From: Dyella sp. 2HG41-7
GTDB lineage: Bacteria > Pseudomonadota > Gammaproteobacteria > Xanthomonadales > Rhodanobacteraceae
NCBI RefSeq assembly: GCF_021390675.1
Contig: NZ_JAJEJV010000004.1
Span: 1,302,001-1,366,000, forward strand
Direction: 5' to 3'
Length of the DNA: 64,000 nt
Part shown: positions 1 to 6,760 of the stretch, in pieces
Position numbering within the stretch: the stretch's first letter is position 1
Layout: each line of letters opens with the position of its first letter
Program-made: the position numbers and the translations under genes
Notes under the pieces: model-generated
What the model saw: the letters and a program-made list of their open reading frames with translations, nothing else
Told to the model about the DNA's origin: nothing
The model's database searches: none

Positions 1-335
1 CAATGCGGATCGCCCAGCGTGGCCAGCGCCAATCCGAACGTCGGCCAATGGGTTTTGGTATCGCCATGTAGGGCCGCGCATGCGCTGAGGAATCGCGCTT
101 CGATGCTTGCGCCCAGGCACAGCACTAGCAGATCGCGCTCGAACGCGCTGAGCGCGAACATAGTTTGCAAGGCATGTAGCCGGTTCTCGGGTGTCGCAAG
201 ATCGTTAGCGAGCGCCGACGCGGCCGGAATGGCTGGCGACGGTTCGCCGACACTCGCTACGAGCCGGCGATAAACCCGTTCCAACGCTTGCGGCAACGAC
301 TCGGGCGATGCGGCGGGCGCGCGCGTGTCGTTCAT
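1..335 (-). CDS. AAA+ ATPase of the eCIS cluster, N-terminal part (cut by the window edge)
   Basis: Reading leftwards from the ATG at 335, the frame stays open for 111 codons to the window edge. The protein begins MNDTRAPAASPESLPQALER and contains an FERDLLVLCLG segment, typical of the N-terminal helical region of the large AAA+ ATPases found in eCIS clusters (Afp15/Pvc15-like). In that family the ATPase is thought to help assemble or recycle the contractile particle in the cytoplasm. The Walker motifs would lie beyond the left edge, so the ATPase call rests on this N-terminus and on gene context. Its ATG overlaps the stop of the DUF4255 gene (ATGA at 332-335), so it is translationally coupled to the cluster. 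Confidence 0.7.
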   Translation of the reverse strand, partial: MNDTRAPAASPESLPQALERVYRRLVASVGEPSPAIPAASALANDLATPENRLHALQTMFALSAFERDLLVLCLGASIEARFLSACAALHGDTKTHWPTFGLALATLGDPH

Positions 336-1588
336 GGCGTCACCTGCAACTGCGGCACGTACTGCCCGAAGGTTGGACTGCCGGTGGTGGTGTCCAGCGT
401 CAGCTTGCTTTGCGCGCCGTCGATCTCAATGCGCAACGGATAGTTGCCGACCGGCACGTTGTTGGTGAGCGGAAACACCAGCGTGGTGGACGTCGGCGGC
501 GCACTGGTGGGGCGCTGATCGATGGGAATGGCGATATCGCCGATATACAGCGTCGCTTGCTGCATGCTGCCGACGGCGGGCGAAACGGTGACGGTGACCG
601 ATCCGGTTTGCGCCACGGGATTGGGCGCAGCGTTGGTGATGGTTGGTAGCAGTTGGAACGGCATGGGGCTGGAGCTGAAGCCCGAATGCGGTTTCGACGA
701 CGTCGGGAACGTGACGGTGCGTTGCACGCGCAACAACCGCGTACCGGCTTGCAACGTGGATGGCAACACCACGCGCAGTATCTTGCTCTGCAAGGTAGCG
801 GGTGCAATCCCTTGCGCGCCATCGAACGACACCAGCGTGTTGCTGGTGGCGTCGCCGACGAAGTTGCTTCCTTGCACCGTCAATGTGCCGCCCGCCGCAA
901 CGCCGCTCGGCGTGATGCTGTCGATCACCGGCGACTGCAACGGAAGCACCAGCACCGAACGCTTTTGCACTGGCAGATTGGATGCATATGTGTTGGTGTC
1001 TTGAATCACCACCACCGATACTTGATAGGAGGTGGTCGGGCGATAGTTCGTCTGGAACGCCGTCCACAGACGGTAGATTTCTTCCGTCGTCAGTGTTTCC
1101 GGCGTAATGCGAATATGTTCGATCTGGTTGGCGAGCATGCTGCCGTCGATCAACGAACCCTCGTGCGTGCCGCCCGGCAGCAACGCGTCGAGCGCGTTTT
1201 GAATGGTTTGGCGCGGAACGACCGGCGTGTCGTGGAGCACTTTCATCGCCCAGCCCAAAAGAATTTCCGGATCGAATTGCTTGCTGCCGTAAGCGGTGAC
1301 GAGGTAATGCAGATTGAGCGCAAGCGGTGGATTGCTGATCGCGTTGCCGTACGCATTGCGCGAAGGAAGGTCCACGTTGCGCATCGCGGGATTGAGGCTG
1401 GCGTAATACATAAAAATATTTACGCCAGGTTGTTCGTCTGCACCCACCGGCACGAGATCGGGCGATGTCGCGGTAATGCCCGCCGTGCTGCCACCCAGAA
1501 TCACGCTCGGGCCGCCGCTGGTCAGCGCATCGGCAAGCAGCCAACGCAACACCGCACTCACACCGCCGACGGCGAGGTAATTGCTCAT
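332..1588 (-). CDS. DUF4255 (Pvc16-type) protein with C-terminal IPT/TIG and Ig-like domains
   Basis: A 418-residue protein. Residues about 5-205 match the DUF4255/Pvc16 N-terminal fold found in nearly all eCIS clusters, where the Afp16/Pvc16 family caps or terminates the tube and sheath. Residues about 218-312 look like an IPT/TIG immunoglobulin-like domain (SPVIDSITPSGVAAGGTLTV). Residues 315-395 form a second beta-rich Ig-like segment. Many Pvc16 proteins lack such extra domains, so they may add a binding function; that is inference. There is no signal peptide, as expected for a cytoplasmic assembly protein. The ATG at 1588 overlaps the upstream stop (ATGA), and its own stop overlaps the AAA+ start in the same way. 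Confidence 0.8.
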   Translation of the reverse strand: MSNYLAVGGVSAVLRWLLADALTSGGPSVILGGSTAGITATSPDLVPVGADEQPGVNIFMYYASLNPAMRNVDLPSRNAYGNAISNPPLALNLHYLVTAYGSKQFDPEILLGWAMKVLHDTPVVPRQTIQNALDALLPGGTHEGSLIDGSMLANQIEHIRITPETLTTEEIYRLWTAFQTNYRPTTSYQVSVVVIQDTNTYASNLPVQKRSVLVLPLQSPVIDSITPSGVAAGGTLTVQGSNFVGDATSNTLVSFDGAQGIAPATLQSKILRVVLPSTLQAGTRLLRVQRTVTFPTSSKPHSGFSSSPMPFQLLPTITNAAPNPVAQTGSVTVTVSPAVGSMQQATLYIGDIAIPIDQRPTSAPPTSTTLVFPLTNNVPVGNYPLRIEIDGAQSKLTLDTTTGSPTFGQYVPQLQVTP

Positions 1589-2250
1589 CGATCGCCGCTC
1601 CGGTCGCGACTCAGAAAGGCGTCGAGGCTCACGCCAGGGCGGAACGGCGGTTTGCGCGGCGCAGACGGCGCAGGCGCTGCGGCGTTGCGCACTTCGACGC
1701 GTCCGATCGAGATGGTGATCGTCTGCGAGTGTTCTTCGATGGCGGGCGTGTCGTGCATAAGCGCTCGCTCGATATGCGGCGTCTCCGCTACCGGTCGCGG
1801 CGAGCGTTGCTGCACCGGCGCGCGAGGGAGCGCGGTCGGTAGTAGGGGTTGAATGACGTTTTGTTTCGTCCCGGCGTCCGCTGTTTCTTCCGATGACACG
1901 TGTGATGGCGTGTCTCGCGCTGGCGATGCCGTAACAACGTTACGCTTCTGCACGGTTTCGCTCGCTGATAGCTCGATAGGCCGCGTCGGGCGCACACCGT
2001 TTTCAGCTTGGAAACGGGACGTTACTTCGGGCTGGATCGGCGTCAGTCTCGTATCGATATCCACCGCGTCGACGTTGCGATTCACGCGCGTCGGCGCGCT
2101 GGCTTCGATGGTCGTCGCGCGAAGCGCCTCCTCATGGCTGTTGGCTTGCGCATGGGCAAAGCGTGGAGACAGCAACGGCTTGATACGGTGCGCGGCGCCT
2201 GCAGAGGCGTCGCGGGCGCGAGAGATCAGGCGGCGCAATAGATCGCTCAT
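1585..2250 (-). CDS. Proline/alanine-rich eCIS-associated protein of unknown function
   Basis: A 221-residue protein beginning MSDLLRRLISRARDASAG. The frame stays open further upstream to about 2508, but that part lies wholly inside the preceding baseplate gene. The ATG at 2250 makes a clean ATGA overlap with that gene's stop, so I chose it. The N-terminus (about 35 residues) is basic and amphipathic. The middle is rich in Pro, Thr, Ala and Arg and probably disordered. A short ordered tail reads RPGVSLDAFLSRDR. Similar terminal SLDxFLxxR motifs occur in small proteins of other eCIS clusters, as I recall. No catalytic motif is visible. A scaffold or linker role in baseplate assembly is possible but unproven. 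Confidence 0.6.
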   Translation of the reverse strand: MSDLLRRLISRARDASAGAAHRIKPLLSPRFAHAQANSHEEALRATTIEASAPTRVNRNVDAVDIDTRLTPIQPEVTSRFQAENGVRPTRPIELSASETVQKRNVVTASPARDTPSHVSSEETADAGTKQNVIQPLLPTALPRAPVQQRSPRPVAETPHIERALMHDTPAIEEHSQTITISIGRVEVRNAAAPAPSAPRKPPFRPGVSLDAFLSRDRSGDR

Positions 2251-2969
2251 GCGCTTAGCAACTCCAGATAAGCGTCGCGTCGTGCAGGGCTCATGCCGGC
2301 GATATCCGACTCGCGCCAGCCGTAATGCATGGCCAGCGTATGGATGTCGACGACCAGGCGACGTGCCGCGTGATGCGCTTTGCGCCATATGAAATCGCCG
2401 AGGTCGACGTCCCACATCGCCTCGTGCTGGCACTCGGGGCAAAGCAGGGCGCAGCGCAGTTCGCTGTCGGCGTGCAATCGGTCGAAAAACGCGCGTGCTC
2501 TCTGCCACGATTCGTCAGATAGCGCCTGATTCGACGACGAGTCCATGCCAAGGCAGCGTCGAAGCACATGTTCTTCGGCGAGCGCACCGTCTGCCAGATA
2601 AGTGGACGCGAGCAGATCGGCGGTCGTGACCTGACGCAAGGAGCGCGGTTGCGCCGCATCCATCCATTCGATCCACGTTGTCGTCGGATCGTCGCTCAAG
2701 CTTTCGAGAAGTTCGCCGATCGAAAGGCTCAATTCCATGCCGGCGCCGCATTGCGGGCAATCGGCATAGCCATCCAGCGTCGGACCGAAACTGATGCGAT
2801 GAAGTTGCAGCAGCAAGCGATTGCGTTGCGACATCGGCAAGTTCAGCAAGCGATCGCGTTCGTATTCCGGCAAGGTCGCGGCCAGCAGCGCGATGGGCCG
2901 AAGCAGCGCGTGTTCGCACTGCGCCTGCTCACAGGCAGCCAGCAATCGTTCGCCAGAAAGAGTCAGCAT
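2247..2969 (-). CDS. Phage T4 gp26-like baseplate protein with two CxxC pairs
   Basis: A 240-residue protein. Cys71-x2-Cys74 and Cys177-x2-Cys180 could form a zinc site. The C-terminus (DIHTLAMHYGWRESDIAGMS followed by a basic/leucine stretch) resembles the T4-like baseplate hub-assembly family found in myophages and eCIS clusters. It presumably acts in the cytoplasm during baseplate/hub assembly. The AGAGG Shine-Dalgarno sequence at about 2976-2981 lies just before the left end of the MITE-like element, so insertion left the ribosome binding site intact. The stop overlaps the start of the next gene (ATGA). The family assignment is by recognition of the tail motif and the cysteine pairs; the zinc site is inferred. 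Confidence 0.65.
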   Translation of the reverse strand: MLTLSGERLLAACEQAQCEHALLRPIALLAATLPEYERDRLLNLPMSQRNRLLLQLHRISFGPTLDGYADCPQCGAGMELSLSIGELLESLSDDPTTTWIEWMDAAQPRSLRQVTTADLLASTYLADGALAEEHVLRRCLGMDSSSNQALSDESWQRARAFFDRLHADSELRCALLCPECQHEAMWDVDLGDFIWRKAHHAARRLVVDIHTLAMHYGWRESDIAGMSPARRDAYLELLSA

Positions 2970-2982
2970 GATGCGCCTCTTA

Positions 2983-3247
2983 GAGCCTGTTTAGTGTCTC
3001 GGCGTTGCCCGCGTTGCCGCGGTGCGTCCGCCAGGTGGTGGTGCGTGGCGCAGTGCTTGCCTGGCTGGCAAGCCAAGCCGCGCGCTGCCGCATGGCGGAC
3101 GCACCGTGGCAACCCTTCGGGCCGGGTTTGTTTGCCCGCCGTGCCGCGTCCTCACTCAGTTGTGTATCGACATACACGCCTTCGTTCCTCCTTGCCCGTC
3201 AGGCAAACAAACCCGGCGCGGGCCACGCCGAGACACTAAACAGGCTC
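2983..3247. mobile_element. 265-bp MITE-like element with 23-bp terminal inverted repeats and TTA target duplication
   Basis: The ends are perfect inverted repeats: 2983-3005 starts GAGCCTGTTTAGTGTCTCGG and 3225-3247 is its complement. TTA flanks both sides (2980-2982 and 3248-3250), consistent with a 3-bp target duplication. Inside lie further inverted pairs: 3021-3033 with 3093-3105 (13 bp) and 3121-3135 with 3203-3217 (15 bp). There is no transposase-sized ORF. Termini starting GAGCCTGTT with a TNA-type duplication suggest mobilisation by an IS5-family (IS427/IS1031-like) transposase; this is inferred from memory of that group. The right-hand TTA is the complement of the tail-tube stop codon, so the insertion hit exactly at that stop. 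Confidence 0.75.
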
Positions 3248-3775
<528 letters not shown>

Positions 3776-3813
3776 GACTCATCTCCGCAAAGACAGGTGT
3801 TCGATGACGACGA

Positions 3814-6078
3814 TCAGGAGGATTGCCCGGCGATCTGCTCGATCTGGATCACCACGAATTCCGCCGGCTTGAGCGGCGCAAAGCCGACCAGGATGTTGAC
3901 GATGCCGTTGTCGATGTCGGTTTGCGTGGTGGTTTCGCTGTCGCATTTGACGAAATACGCTTGCGCCGGCGTGCTGCCCTGAAACGCGCCTTTCAAAAAC
4001 AGCGTTTGCATAAAGCCGCCGACGTTGAGCCGTATGGACGCCCATAACGGTTCGTCGTTGGGTTCGAATACGACCCATTGCGTACCTCGATAAAGGCTTT
4101 CCTCGATGAACAGCGCGGTGCGTCGCACGGGCACGTATTTCCATTGATTGGCCATCGCATCCGCGCCGACCAAGGTGCGCGCGCCCCACAACACCGAGCC
4201 GTACACGGGGAAATTGCGGAAGCAATTGAGGCCCAGCGGATTGAGCACGCCGTTTTCGGCGTCGGTGAGTTTGTAGACCATGCTTTGCACGCCATTGAGT
4301 ACGGCGGCGGTGCCGGCCGGCGCTTTCCAAACGCCGCGACTGCCGTCGGTCGTCGCGTACACGCCCGCTACCACGCCGCTCGGCGCGAACGTACGCAATT
4401 GGTAGTTGTTCAACGGGTCGGGTAGGCGCAGACGCGGGAAGAACGCCGCGCCGTTCGGATCGACCACGCCCAACGTGCTGCTTTTCCAATCCACGGCGGC
4501 GGCCACGCTGACGACGTTCGGTGGCGGATCGATCAACAAAAATGCGCGCCGTTGATCGCACATGGCGATCGCCGCGCTGTAGATCGCGCTGGTGTTGATA
4601 TTGGGATCCAGCGCCGAAGGATCGCCCTTGTTGGCGCGCGTTGCATCGGGAATGCACAACAAGTTGAAAAGATCGACCTTCTGCAACGCATAGATGCCGG
4701 TAAACAAAGCCTGATCGCCAATGATGTCCAAAGTCGCAGGCAAGCCCGTGCCGTCGGCGCCTTTGGTCGATGTGGTCTGCTGCGCCCAGGCGTTGTTGCC
4801 GGTTCCCAGCGCGTAGTGCGCCACGTTCGCGGTGCCGCCGCTAAGTCCGAGCAGGGCGGCGCAAGGTTTCAGCGGCGAAGCGCCGGAAGGATCGGCGATG
4901 CTGATCACCGCATCCGGATAGCCGGGCAGTGACGCATTGAAACGCAATGCTTGCGTCGACGGCGAAGCGGGCAATTGCGTCACGCTCACCTGCACGGAAG
5001 CGCCCGGCATTTGCACCGCCAGCGCGGCGTTGAAGGCTTGCTGTATCTGCGTCGCCAGGCCGCTCAACGTCATCGGAATCTGACTATTGCTGGGAATCAC
5101 CTTCACCGTGATCGGCAAGCCGGCTGGAGCGGTAGCGGGATCGGTCGTGCCTAGCATCAGGCCGTAATCATTCGCCGGCACGGTGGAATTGGCGACGACA
5201 ATCGTCGATGCGGCTTCATTGGCGCCGGTGTAGTTCCCCGCCAGCGTGAGGCTGGTGTCGTTGCTGATCGAAAGAATGCGATACGGCGTATTGGTGGCGT
5301 CGGAGCCGAACGTGATCCACTGACCGAACTTCAGATCGGTGGTGAAGTGCGTGCCGGTACCCACCACGCTGCTGCTGCCGGTCGTGATCGCGGCGGTGCC
5401 GGTCGCGTTCGTCGTGCCGCAAAGCGTGCTGGCGACCGAGTAGGGTGTGACCGCCGCGCCGACGAAGCCGGTTTGATACATGGACGCCAGCGCTTCGATC
5501 GCCGTGAGTTGCGCGGAAGTAGGTGTCGCCATGTTGATGAGTTGCGAGCCGTTGTCCGGATCGTTGACGACCGTCTGCACCCAGTTGCTTTGCGTGTTGT
5601 CATACGAGACGGACGGGAAATATTCCGTGGTGCCGCCCGCCAGATCGGTCACCGTAAGATTGAACGTTTTCTGGCCGCCCGATCCGGTATTCGGGTTGAG
5701 TCCGATGTAGTCGATGTCGATCAGCAAATTCCCGTTCGCCGCGGTGCCGCTGCTTAGCGCCTGGAACGTAAAGGACTGGAAGACGACGTTCGCCGCCGCA
5801 GCGCCCAGCGATGTCGCAGGCGTTCGCACGATGTACGCTTGCGCGCCGCCATTCTGAAAGAACTGTTGCACCGCGTAGCTGAGCTCGCTACCGGAAGCCA
5901 GGCCGCCGTACAAGCGTTCGTAATCGCCGAAGCTGAAAATCTCTTGCGCGCGATTGTCGATGCCGCTCTGCGTGTAGCCGACGAACGCCGTGATGGAAGT
6001 CGGTACGCCAGTAATCGGATGGGAGGCGCTTTGCAGTTCCTGCACGTACACGCCGGGATAGCTATAGGACGTCGCCAT
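3814..6078 (-). CDS. eCIS tail sheath protein with an inserted beta-rich domain
   Basis: A 754-residue contractile sheath subunit. The N-terminus (SYSYPGVYVQELQSASHPIT) and the C-terminal core (from about 615, with IEESLYRGTQWVVFEPNDEP) are hallmark sheath regions. The C-terminal 'handshake' part mediates inter-subunit linkage in known sheaths. The protein is longer than the ~350-500 residues of short eCIS sheaths because of a large middle insertion. Residues about 222-297 in it resemble a beta-sandwich module seen in phage and surface proteins (GTGTHFTTDLKFGQW, then NDTSLTLAGNYTG). Inserted sheath domains normally project from the outer particle surface. CAAGGTAATCACT precedes the ATG. It is the second gene of the operon. 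Confidence 0.92.
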   Translation of the reverse strand: MATSYSYPGVYVQELQSASHPITGVPTSITAFVGYTQSGIDNRAQEIFSFGDYERLYGGLASGSELSYAVQQFFQNGGAQAYIVRTPATSLGAAAANVVFQSFTFQALSSGTAANGNLLIDIDYIGLNPNTGSGGQKTFNLTVTDLAGGTTEYFPSVSYDNTQSNWVQTVVNDPDNGSQLINMATPTSAQLTAIEALASMYQTGFVGAAVTPYSVASTLCGTTNATGTAAITTGSSSVVGTGTHFTTDLKFGQWITFGSDATNTPYRILSISNDTSLTLAGNYTGANEAASTIVVANSTVPANDYGLMLGTTDPATAPAGLPITVKVIPSNSQIPMTLSGLATQIQQAFNAALAVQMPGASVQVSVTQLPASPSTQALRFNASLPGYPDAVISIADPSGASPLKPCAALLGLSGGTANVAHYALGTGNNAWAQQTTSTKGADGTGLPATLDIIGDQALFTGIYALQKVDLFNLLCIPDATRANKGDPSALDPNINTSAIYSAAIAMCDQRRAFLLIDPPPNVVSVAAAVDWKSSTLGVVDPNGAAFFPRLRLPDPLNNYQLRTFAPSGVVAGVYATTDGSRGVWKAPAGTAAVLNGVQSMVYKLTDAENGVLNPLGLNCFRNFPVYGSVLWGARTLVGADAMANQWKYVPVRRTALFIEESLYRGTQWVVFEPNDEPLWASIRLNVGGFMQTLFLKGAFQGSTPAQAYFVKCDSETTTQTDIDNGIVNILVGFAPLKPAEFVVIQIEQIAGQSS

Positions 6079-6168
6079 AGTGATTACCTTGCTGACGTTG
6101 AAACATCGAAGGGCCCGAGTCGGGAGAACACCCGGGCAGCGGTAAACAAGAGGGTCGCGGACATCGTC

Positions 6169-6483
6169 TCAGTGCTTGAGCCCGATGCCGGATTGCAACG
6201 CAATGAATTGATCCAGACACGCATCCCCCGCCGAATCGATAGACACTCTTCGGAAACGCACGCGACCATCGAGCGCGCGCACCGCCTCGATCGCACCGGC
6301 GTCTTGCAACAGCGCAAGCGCACGTTCCACAACGTCGGTCGATGCGGGAGCCAGCCCCAACCACCATTGCGCAATGCCCTCCTTGGTATCTCCTGCGAGC
6401 GGATTGGCTCGTAGATAGCGGGCAAGGCAACACGCCACGTCGGACACCGACGCCGGGTCGCTCGGCCTCACATCGCCATTCAT
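6169..6483 (-). CDS. Small winged-helix-like protein heading the eCIS operon
   Basis: A 104-residue protein beginning MNGDVRPSDPASVSDVACCL. Residues about 18-90 look like a compact helical/winged-helix domain: ARYLRANPLAGDTKEGIAQW, then helices ending in LLQDAGAIEAVRALDGRVRF. I recall similar ~100-residue proteins with a DTxEGIxxWWL core near eCIS and tailocin loci, so a regulatory or assembly role in the same operon is plausible. The frame stays open upstream to 6777, but that stretch carries palindromic operators and a hairpin and reads like non-coding DNA, so I start at 6483. No clear Shine-Dalgarno sequence precedes this ATG, which leaves the start uncertain. Confidence 0.6.
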   Translation of the reverse strand: MNGDVRPSDPASVSDVACCLARYLRANPLAGDTKEGIAQWWLGLAPASTDVVERALALLQDAGAIEAVRALDGRVRFRRVSIDSAGDACLDQFIALQSGIGLKH

Positions 6484-6574
6484 GACGAGAAAGGGGCAAG
6501 GACGATGCCAGTTCGGCGCATCGCACAGGCGCTTGTTTTTAGGGGGAAAGCGTGAGGCGGTCTCGGCGCCGGGT

Positions 6575-6683
6575 GGACACTTTTGTCCTAGCTCAATACG
6601 TCGAAGAAGGGCGGCAGCGTTTGCTGGAACGCCGCTTGAACCGCACGGACAAATTTGTCCTATCGGATCGAGGCATTTGTCCT
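6575..6683 (-). promoter_or_regulatory. Candidate operators upstream of the eCIS operon (GGACA-N4-TGTCC palindromes)
   Basis: On the minus strand the octamer AGGACAAA occurs three times, at 6683, 6661 and 6589 (22 and 72 bp apart). Two copies form palindromes with GGACA/TGTCC arms and a 4-bp centre: GGACAAATTTGTCC at 6647-6660 (perfect) and 6575-6588 (imperfect centre). The third is a half site. They lie 92-200 bp upstream of the first eCIS gene, in DNA with no convincing gene. Such clustered dyads look like binding sites of a dimeric repressor or activator. I cannot name the regulator, and I see no convincing -35/-10 pair. Confidence 0.5.
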
Positions 6684-6734
6684 GTGCGTGAGTGCACGCC
6701 TGCGCGCCAGTGGCGCTGGTTTGAGCATCCATTC

Positions 6735-6760
6735 GTCGTCCCGGCGCTTGCGGGGACGAC
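6735..6760. repeat. Intergenic hairpin GTCGTCCC/GGGACGAC
   Basis: Eight-base perfect arms at 6735-6742 and 6753-6760 enclose a 10-base loop. It lies 34 bp after the cytochrome c stop codon and before the eCIS regulatory region, so it may help end the oxidase/cytochrome transcript. It resembles other GC-rich intergenic hairpins here (21435-21462, 45325-45344), suggesting a dispersed family. No T-tract follows it. Confidence 0.45.

Follow-up and report, generated by a model that had tools for sequence, protein, structure and literature searches.

The window analyzed here is a 64,000-nucleotide stretch of Dyella sp. 2HG41-7 (family Rhodanobacteraceae; genome of 4,255,517 bases in four contigs), namely, positions 1302001 to 1366000 of contig NZ_JAJEJV010000004.1 (C4). 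Its left end holds the start of an operon of ∼29.6 kb (C4:1278920-1308483), which begins at window position 6483, has all of its genes on the minus strand, and almost certainly encodes an extracellular contractile injection system (eCIS). Positions are those of the window unless a prefix is given. Just upstream of the first gene is a predicted sigma-54 promoter with palindromic enhancers, an activator gene is convergent to the far end of the operon, and the gene that follows the fiber candidate encodes a DUF6734 protein, a putative glycosyltransferase. The explanation favored here, to which we assign a probability of about 0.75, is an eCIS that would be licensed through enhancers and whose fiber would be modified by DUF6734, the regulatory part being predicted from sequence and the role of the enzyme proposed. 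Relative to the initial annotation, this adds a candidate on-switch inside the window and a fiber-coupled putative glycosyltransferase just outside it.

Open reading frames (ORFs) left of the window were chosen by a simple codon-position GC score, after which starts were checked, and 21 locus proteins and 10 flanking proteins were scanned against Pfam. The operon opens with genes for a winged-helix protein, sheath, tube, gp26-like protein, an unnamed protein of 221 amino acids (aa), a DUF4255-TIG cap, an AAA+ ATPase (650 aa), and a 112-aa protein of unknown kind. These are followed by CIS_tube (PF19266, 2.6e-4), LysM (0.006), and gpD-like hub (NCBIfam VgrG_rel, 3.7e-4) genes, all three with matches below cut-off, and by an OB spike (PF04717, 7.3e-18), a 107-aa gene that sits at the PAAR position and is PAAR-like by position alone (no Pfam or NCBIfam match), gp25 (C4:1296714-1297091, minus strand; PF04965, 1.9e-15), and two TIGR02243 baseplate proteins (1.6e-70 and 1.4e-69). 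The last group comprises a 760-aa tail protein without a family, the fiber candidate (DUF6519 at residues 1 to 448, E value of 1.3e-47), DUF6734, a 485-aa eCIS_core protein with OmpA, and a 1733-aa eCIS_core protein; the two DUF4157 (eCIS_core) matches have E values of 1.8e-17 and 8.6e-28. The picked genes stand in the same order in ten family loci, with one local difference (some small genes were missed by the ORF picker).

The initial annotation had placed sheath, tube, gp26-like, DUF4255, and AAA+ genes in one operon and had read them as an eCIS. Matches in Pfam, NCBIfam, and PHROG confirm these genes, and the OB spike, gp25, two baseplate proteins, DUF6519 fiber, and two DUF4157 proteins left of the window support the identity. 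Among the genes that it expected further to the left, the spike and DUF4157 genes were found, LysM and a gpD/VgrG-like hub are represented by the matches below cut-off, and no tape-measure gene was recognized among the 21 locus proteins. The locus is thus described as a contractile injection system of the DUF6519-fiber kind with a complete-looking gene set.

Predicted sigma-54 control of the operon

The first gene of the operon encodes a winged-helix protein of 104 aa (6169..6483, minus strand; AlphaFold2 model with pLDDT 87.2 and fold matches). Of 79 named sheath loci, 13 encode a relative, always immediately 5′ of the sheath gene; these 13 come from Dyella, Rhodanobacter, Paraburkholderia, Roseateles, Aquabacterium, Nitrosomonas, a betaproteobacterial metagenome-assembled genome (MAG), a Nitrospiraceae genome, and Udaeobacter. 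In an alignment of the regions 5′ of seven related sheath genes (at most 700 bp each), the clearest conserved noncoding blocks were TGGCA-N6-TTGC immediately ahead of the winged-helix gene and a pair of palindromes of the GGACAAA type. A −24/−12 element with upstream enhancers is the layout of sigma-54 promoters, and the predicted −24/−12 promoter, TGGCATCGTCCTTGC (6496..6510, minus strand), has TGGCA and TTGC invariant in 7/7 aligned loci. The winged-helix ATG lies ∼13 nucleotides (nt) past the −12 element, and the operon mRNA may therefore be nearly leaderless.

Two palindromic enhancers (upstream activating sequences) are predicted on the same strand, a proximal copy, GGACAAAAGTGTCC (6575..6588), based on the alignment and an exact genome match, and a distal copy, GGACAAATTTGTCC (6647..6660), which forms a direct repeat with the proximal one at a spacing of 72. 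A third copy, read from the sequence as a half-site, GGACAAAT (6675..6682, minus strand), is recognizable in 5/7 aligned regions and appears degraded or absent in the alignment rows of genomes G198 and G199. Exact matches to GGACAAANNTGTCC in the whole 4.26-Mb genome occur at only two places, 6647-6660 and 6575-6588, 72 bp apart. Allowing one mismatch gave 14 rows versus 11 in a backward control, which makes single sites of this kind uninformative, and a regulon search found no −24/−12 element in the 3 kb around the other one-mismatch sites.

A composite pattern (enhancer-N50-80-promoter, with the backward pattern as the control) occurs with N64, exactly 92 bp long, in six loci, those of the present genome (G000), G017, G038, G171, G198, and G199. 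Among 197 family genomes it gave six matches, four of which (G000, G017, G038, and G171) are eCIS promoters, and among 50 named genomes drawn from those with the 79 sheath loci it gave four, of which those in G198 and G199 are eCIS promoters; the control gave 0 in both sets. The promoter-association test took in 78 of the 79 named loci, the upstream DNA of the remaining locus being too short. A site with ≤2 mismatches within 600 bp upstream of the sheath was present in 13/13 winged-helix loci versus 2/65 others, and random segments gave 101/1560 at the same threshold. The 13 loci are not independent and span Pseudomonadota, Nitrospirota, and Verrucomicrobiota; in one (L030), the best-ranked site differs from the aligned site, with which it is tied. 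In G049, G028, G002, G201, and G227, the 600 bp preceding the sheath ORF contained no promoter-like site. RpoN has one match in the Dyella genome.

The activator gene, a candidate bacterial enhancer-binding protein (bEBP) gene with Walker A and B motifs (C4:1277452-1278912; PF00158, E value of 1.8e-63), is convergent to the far end of the operon, as are relatives in G038, G171, G040, G198, and G199 (65 to 85% identical). More distant relatives (43 to 46%) lie upstream in G078, G029, G094, and G204, and none was found in the locus DNA analyzed of G017, G049, G028, G002, G201, G227, G200, or G208. A relative was present on the analyzed locus in 10/13 winged-helix loci versus 4/65 others, and the remaining three winged-helix loci (L028, L029, and L030, corresponding to G040, G198, and G199) have it at the 3′ end of the operon. 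A SapC-family gene (PF07277; L003:14290-15144) adjoins the activator gene at this far end.

Several observations weigh against the proposed control. The activator's Fis-type helix-turn-helix (PF02954) is below cut-off. Its sigma-54-contacting loop is GAYTSA, not GAFTGA, so that the protein would work like a bEBP without plainly belonging to that family. The departing loop counts against plain membership and is also a lead: in eCIS-linked activators (L003:15452-16912 and relatives), GA[FY]T[S/D/T/H]A replaces GAFTGA in 19/20 readable rows from 17 distinct genomes, GAFTGA itself occurs only in L104, a locus without a winged-helix match, and two further rows were unreadable. In addition, the Dyella −24/−12 site has two mismatches to the consensus used, G017 has two promoter-like sites and no bEBP in the 40 kb analyzed, and composite matches away from eCIS loci occurred twice in family genomes (G092, 95 bp; G095, 80 bp) and twice in named genomes (98 and 100 bp). 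G040 lacks the strict enhancer pattern and was missed by the composite search because its proximal site departs.

On balance, sigma-54/bEBP control of the operon is predicted with high confidence. RNA polymerase with sigma-54 would sit at 6510-6496 and stay silent until the bEBP binds the palindromic enhancers 64 to 150 bp upstream and opens the promoter, and the winged-helix protein, made first, would probably add a further layer of control. For most eCIS loci only the sequence has been described, and what leads a producer to make these particles is a gap in the field; here, where the paired enhancers have no other exact copy in the genome and the predicted activator is encoded nearby, deletion of a single gene would put that question to a direct test.

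DUF6734 and the fiber

The DUF6734 gene (Pfam DUF6734, 7.2e-54) directly follows the DUF6519 fiber gene. In 12/12 distinct carriers from two phyla, the gap between fiber stop and DUF6734 start is −4 to 47 nt. These carriers are six Rhodanobacteraceae, two Paraburkholderia, an Ancylobacter, an alphaproteobacterial MAG, an Edaphobacter, and a Bryobacteraceae MAG; in both MAGs, the sheath is on a different contig from DUF6734. The DUF6734 proteins of 11 other eCIS loci are 44 to 89% identical to that of Dyella. The motif HxDxDV is invariant, with D101 and D103 (DxD) present in 14/14 sequences, and a DxD motif is a feature of GT-A glycosyltransferases. DUF6734 was found in 5/197 family genomes, exactly the five with a full-length, one-piece sheath match, in 8/50 named genomes (one of which is G040 again), and in 1/369 class genomes and 1/398 phylum genomes, the Dyella genome in both cases. 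Sheath length was considered as a mark of DUF6734; it fits the 197 family genomes and fails outside them, where the carrier Edaphobacter has a 676-aa sheath and the noncarrier Paracoccus (L041) a match of 764 codons.

The fibers of carriers tend to share a C terminus. A profile built from the fiber C termini of five carriers matched 5/7 other carriers and 0/6 noncarriers. The one local difference in gene order mentioned above concerns the DUF6734-negative G078, G029, and G094, together with the Ancylobacter G227, which have genes similar to that of the Dyella eCIS_core/OmpA protein between the AAA+ and CIS_tube genes.

The AAA+ tree (46 rows) places nine of its ten carriers in a single clade (support of 100/99), in which Gammaproteobacteria, Betaproteobacteria, and an acidobacterium are intermixed; the Ancylobacter G227 lies outside it. 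A tree of the short tube protein, in quick form, is less clear and places nine of eleven carriers together, with G204 and G227 apart. The DUF6734-fiber pair thus travels across phyla together with the machine, and more than one gain or loss of it is possible.

Outside eCIS loci, phage records gave no DUF6734 match, and two IMG/VR stretches matched a DUF6734 pattern, neither of which encodes a relative. Two Bacteroidota relatives with 27 to 28% identity lie on plasmids (L145 and L146; Hymenobacter and Emticicia), with no eCIS gene annotated in the 15 kb that flank them on each side. The Emticicia gene neighbors lantibiotic dehydratase, vitamin K epoxide reductase, TlpA, ABC exporter, and HlyD genes, and the Hymenobacter gene neighbors vitamin K epoxide reductase, TlpA, and HlyD genes and transposases, which suggests peptide modification in these distant neighborhoods.

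On the evidence of its motif, DUF6734 probably acts as a GT-A-type glycosyltransferase; that it acts on the fiber or the particle is proposed more tentatively, at somewhat under even odds. Translated right after the fiber, the enzyme would modify the DUF6519 protein, and the DUF4157 proteins would be cargo or cargo carriers, as the eCIS literature leads one to expect. If DUF6734 does glycosylate the fiber, this could bear on target choice and on particle survival. Several results tell against this proposal. The protein has no detectable similarity to a solved or named glycosyltransferase: its profile had no PDB match up to an E value of 10, and in Pfam it matched DUF6734 and gave three weak single-member matches, with no glycosyltransferase family among them. 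The G208 and G227 fibers accompany DUF6734 without the shared C-terminal type, a Ser/Thr/Pro-rich linker considered as the glycosylation site did not separate carriers (0.60 in Dyella versus 0.57 in a noncarrier) and was rejected, and the linkage of DUF6734 to the fiber could be clade inheritance.

Two other roles for DUF6734 deserve weighing. As a fiber-assembly partner, or as a passenger gene of one eCIS clade that glycosylates nothing in particular, it would occupy the slot after the fiber gene where phages put fiber chaperones, and the single AAA+ clade of nine of the ten carriers agrees with such a role. The invariant DxD argues against both variants, as do the position of the Ancylobacter G227 outside the clade, which requires two label changes, and the two distant Bacteroidota relatives away from annotated eCIS genes, and we consider this role rather unlikely. 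Slightly less likely again is that DUF6734 itself travels as cargo and, once injected, glycosylates a target-cell protein. In the carriers found, DUF6734 is not swapped and always directly follows the fiber, whereas the large last DUF4157 protein changes between loci: a near-full-length relative (62%) occurs only in G040, the gene at that place in G038 matches no protein of the present locus, and those in G171, G017, and G199 match over only ∼140 to 180 aa, to the other eCIS_core protein of the locus. DUF6734 also lacks a DUF4157 domain of its own, and no DUF4157-like gene was recognized after it in the DNA analyzed of G198, G201, G208, and G227 (the rest of these genomes was not searched), G227 having one elsewhere in the operon. 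Modification of the fiber is accordingly preferred over cargo, as DUF6734 is conserved, coupled to the fiber, and present where no DUF4157-like gene follows. Separately, a gene of ∼200 to 218 aa follows the last DUF4157-like gene in G171, G017, and G199 (L110, L114, and L136) and was not seen in the Dyella locus; its product is possibly a partner of that effector type.

The machine itself could be read in other ways. A cytoplasmic system of the Streptomyces kind, acting inside its producer and never released, would accord with the nearest solved sheath (8BKY, from S. coelicolor) and with the absence of a recognized tape-measure gene, which is also reported for the Streptomyces system in the sections of PMC10066040 consulted. 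A DUF6519 protein, the fiber class of eBAP5 (PMC12923769), is nevertheless present in 18/18 measured loci, whereas the same sections describe Streptomyces systems without conventional fibers, so that confinement to the producer appears improbable. An R-type tailocin or remnant prophage tail has only a very slight chance of being correct. All contractile tails share ancestry; the AAA+ protein, DUF4255 cap, and eCIS_core proteins are nonetheless eCIS marks, and no head, integrase, or lysis family was recognized among the 31 locus and flanking proteins, with capsid, terminase, portal, and integrase sought by Pfam. The flanking genes are chromosomal (dxs, MMPL, cytochrome c, amine oxidase, acyl-CoA dehydrogenase, and others), and the prophage tail with capsid and terminase genes, which the initial annotation had named as the competing outcome, was thus not encountered.

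Structural genes and a hairpin in the window

The sheath protein (754 aa; 3814..6078, minus strand) matches PF17482 and a PHROG of tail sheaths, and the best solved match of its family profile is 8BKY, deposited with the S. coelicolor system. Compared with shorter relatives it carries a long insertion (roughly residues 200 to 430), and residues 225 to 288 match a PHROG of tail fiber proteins. The inner tube protein (175 aa; 3248..3775, minus strand) matches PF06841 and TIGR02241. Directly 3′ of the tube gene is a near-perfect hairpin element of 267 bp (2982..3248) with 32-nt terminal inverted repeats and an RNA fold of −187 kcal/mol (z score of −13.3). Because of this element, the gap between the tube and gp26-like genes is 278 nt here versus 0 to 141 nt in 15 other measured loci. 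Elsewhere in the genome, the terminal repeat was not matched at two mismatches or fewer and was matched once at three, and the hairpin may lower expression of the genes 3′ of the tube gene.

The gp26-like baseplate protein (240 aa; 2247..2969, minus strand; PF12322, 4.1e-5; PHROG baseplate hub, 1e-4) belongs to a family present in 76/79 named sheath loci. The 221-aa protein (1585..2250, minus strand) has no match in Pfam, NCBIfam, PHROG, or PDB. Matches to it occur in 55/79 named loci, archaea included, with a variable middle between conserved N-terminal (FLxRL..R..G..P.L.PR..S.FEP-like) and C-terminal (IGR.EVRA ... SLDDYL-like) motifs, and it may tether one part of the machine to another.

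The cap, or tail terminator (332..1588, minus strand; PF14065 and PF01833), combines DUF4255/Pvc16_N with a C-terminal half of Ig-like strands, in which Pfam finds one TIG domain and the model (25 sequences, pLDDT 83, pTM 0.47) suggests two Ig-like domains. A Foldseek search with this model returned the solved caps 9qgn, 9gts, 7b5i, and 7adz (PVC, S. coelicolor, Anabaena, and Algoriphagus; E values of 1.2e-7 to 2.7e-6) and also many unrelated Ig proteins. The initial annotation had regarded the extra Ig domains as distinctive, a view not borne out: relatives gave 69 matches in 68 loci, and the 40 listed are all 400 to 458 aa, so that among those listed the Ig extension belongs to the lineage. 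The window also holds the N-terminal part (3..335, minus strand) of the AAA+ ATPase (whole protein, C4:1300383-1302335; PF00004 and WHD PF22977). Its match to the antiphage ATPase IteA was far below the IteA cut-off, and it is read as a generic AAA+ protein. By homology, the tube and sheath would polymerize on a gp25/TIGR02243/hub-OB baseplate, with the DUF4255-Ig protein as the cap and AAA+ assisting. Rfam gave no match in the region, no tRNA was found within the first 20 kb of the window, and sigma-70 promoters and simple terminators in the region did not exceed shuffles.

Comparison with described contractile systems

The initial annotation had suggested a less-studied eCIS subtype, and the locus indeed belongs to an eCIS class that is already described and little studied. 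A broader proposal, which we put forward only tentatively, is of a multiphylum eCIS clade whose fibers would be glycosylated by a built-in DUF6734, with production in several proteobacterial members confined to times when a dedicated bEBP, acting at paired enhancers, activates a sigma-54 promoter, and with the winged-helix/sigma-54/bEBP cassette acting as an eCIS on-switch in at least three phyla. The literature searched, in which few subscription journals are covered, does not contain the term DUF6734, and no case of an eCIS under sigma-54 was found in it, including the portions consulted of PMC2725144, PMC10599522, and PMC6653060. Nor was a proposal found of a glycosyltransferase acting on an eCIS fiber, as judged mostly from titles and listings, and "glycosyl" does not occur in the main text of PMC12923769. 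In a large survey (PMC8213781), the regulators named next to eCIS loci are RfaH, GerE, and BTAD genes.

Among known systems, eBAP5, as described in part of PMC12923769, shares the DUF6519 N terminus on the fiber candidate and the placement of the fiber gene after the baseplate genes. The same part presents its class as largely lacking an Afp12 homologue; here, there are two TIGR02243 proteins, and Tail_P2_I was not detected by Pfam in the 760-aa tail protein or elsewhere in the locus. The S. coelicolor system (subtype IId), judging from the extract of PMC10066040 seen, resembles the Dyella locus in having the nearest solved sheath and no typical tape measure, but the Dyella locus has a fiber candidate, DUF4157 proteins, a sigma-54-type promoter, and a Gram-negative host. 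In the table of PMC10599522, a sheath-tube-baseplate cluster of Geobacter sulfurreducens (GSU0972-0992) includes a "Glycosyltransferase" (GSU0991).

With Afp and PVC (subtype Ia), the core parts are shared by homology, the Pvc16-like cap included. Compared with those systems, the Dyella locus has one sheath rather than several, separate genes for the hub, spike, and LysM, no recognized tape measure, and another gene order. Type VI secretion system (T6SS) clusters are reportedly, in work that PMC6653060 credits to Bernard et al. 2011, under sigma-54 and bEBPs. The likeness would lie in a contractile machine with sigma-54 and a cognate bEBP, which there is a T6SS and here an eCIS.

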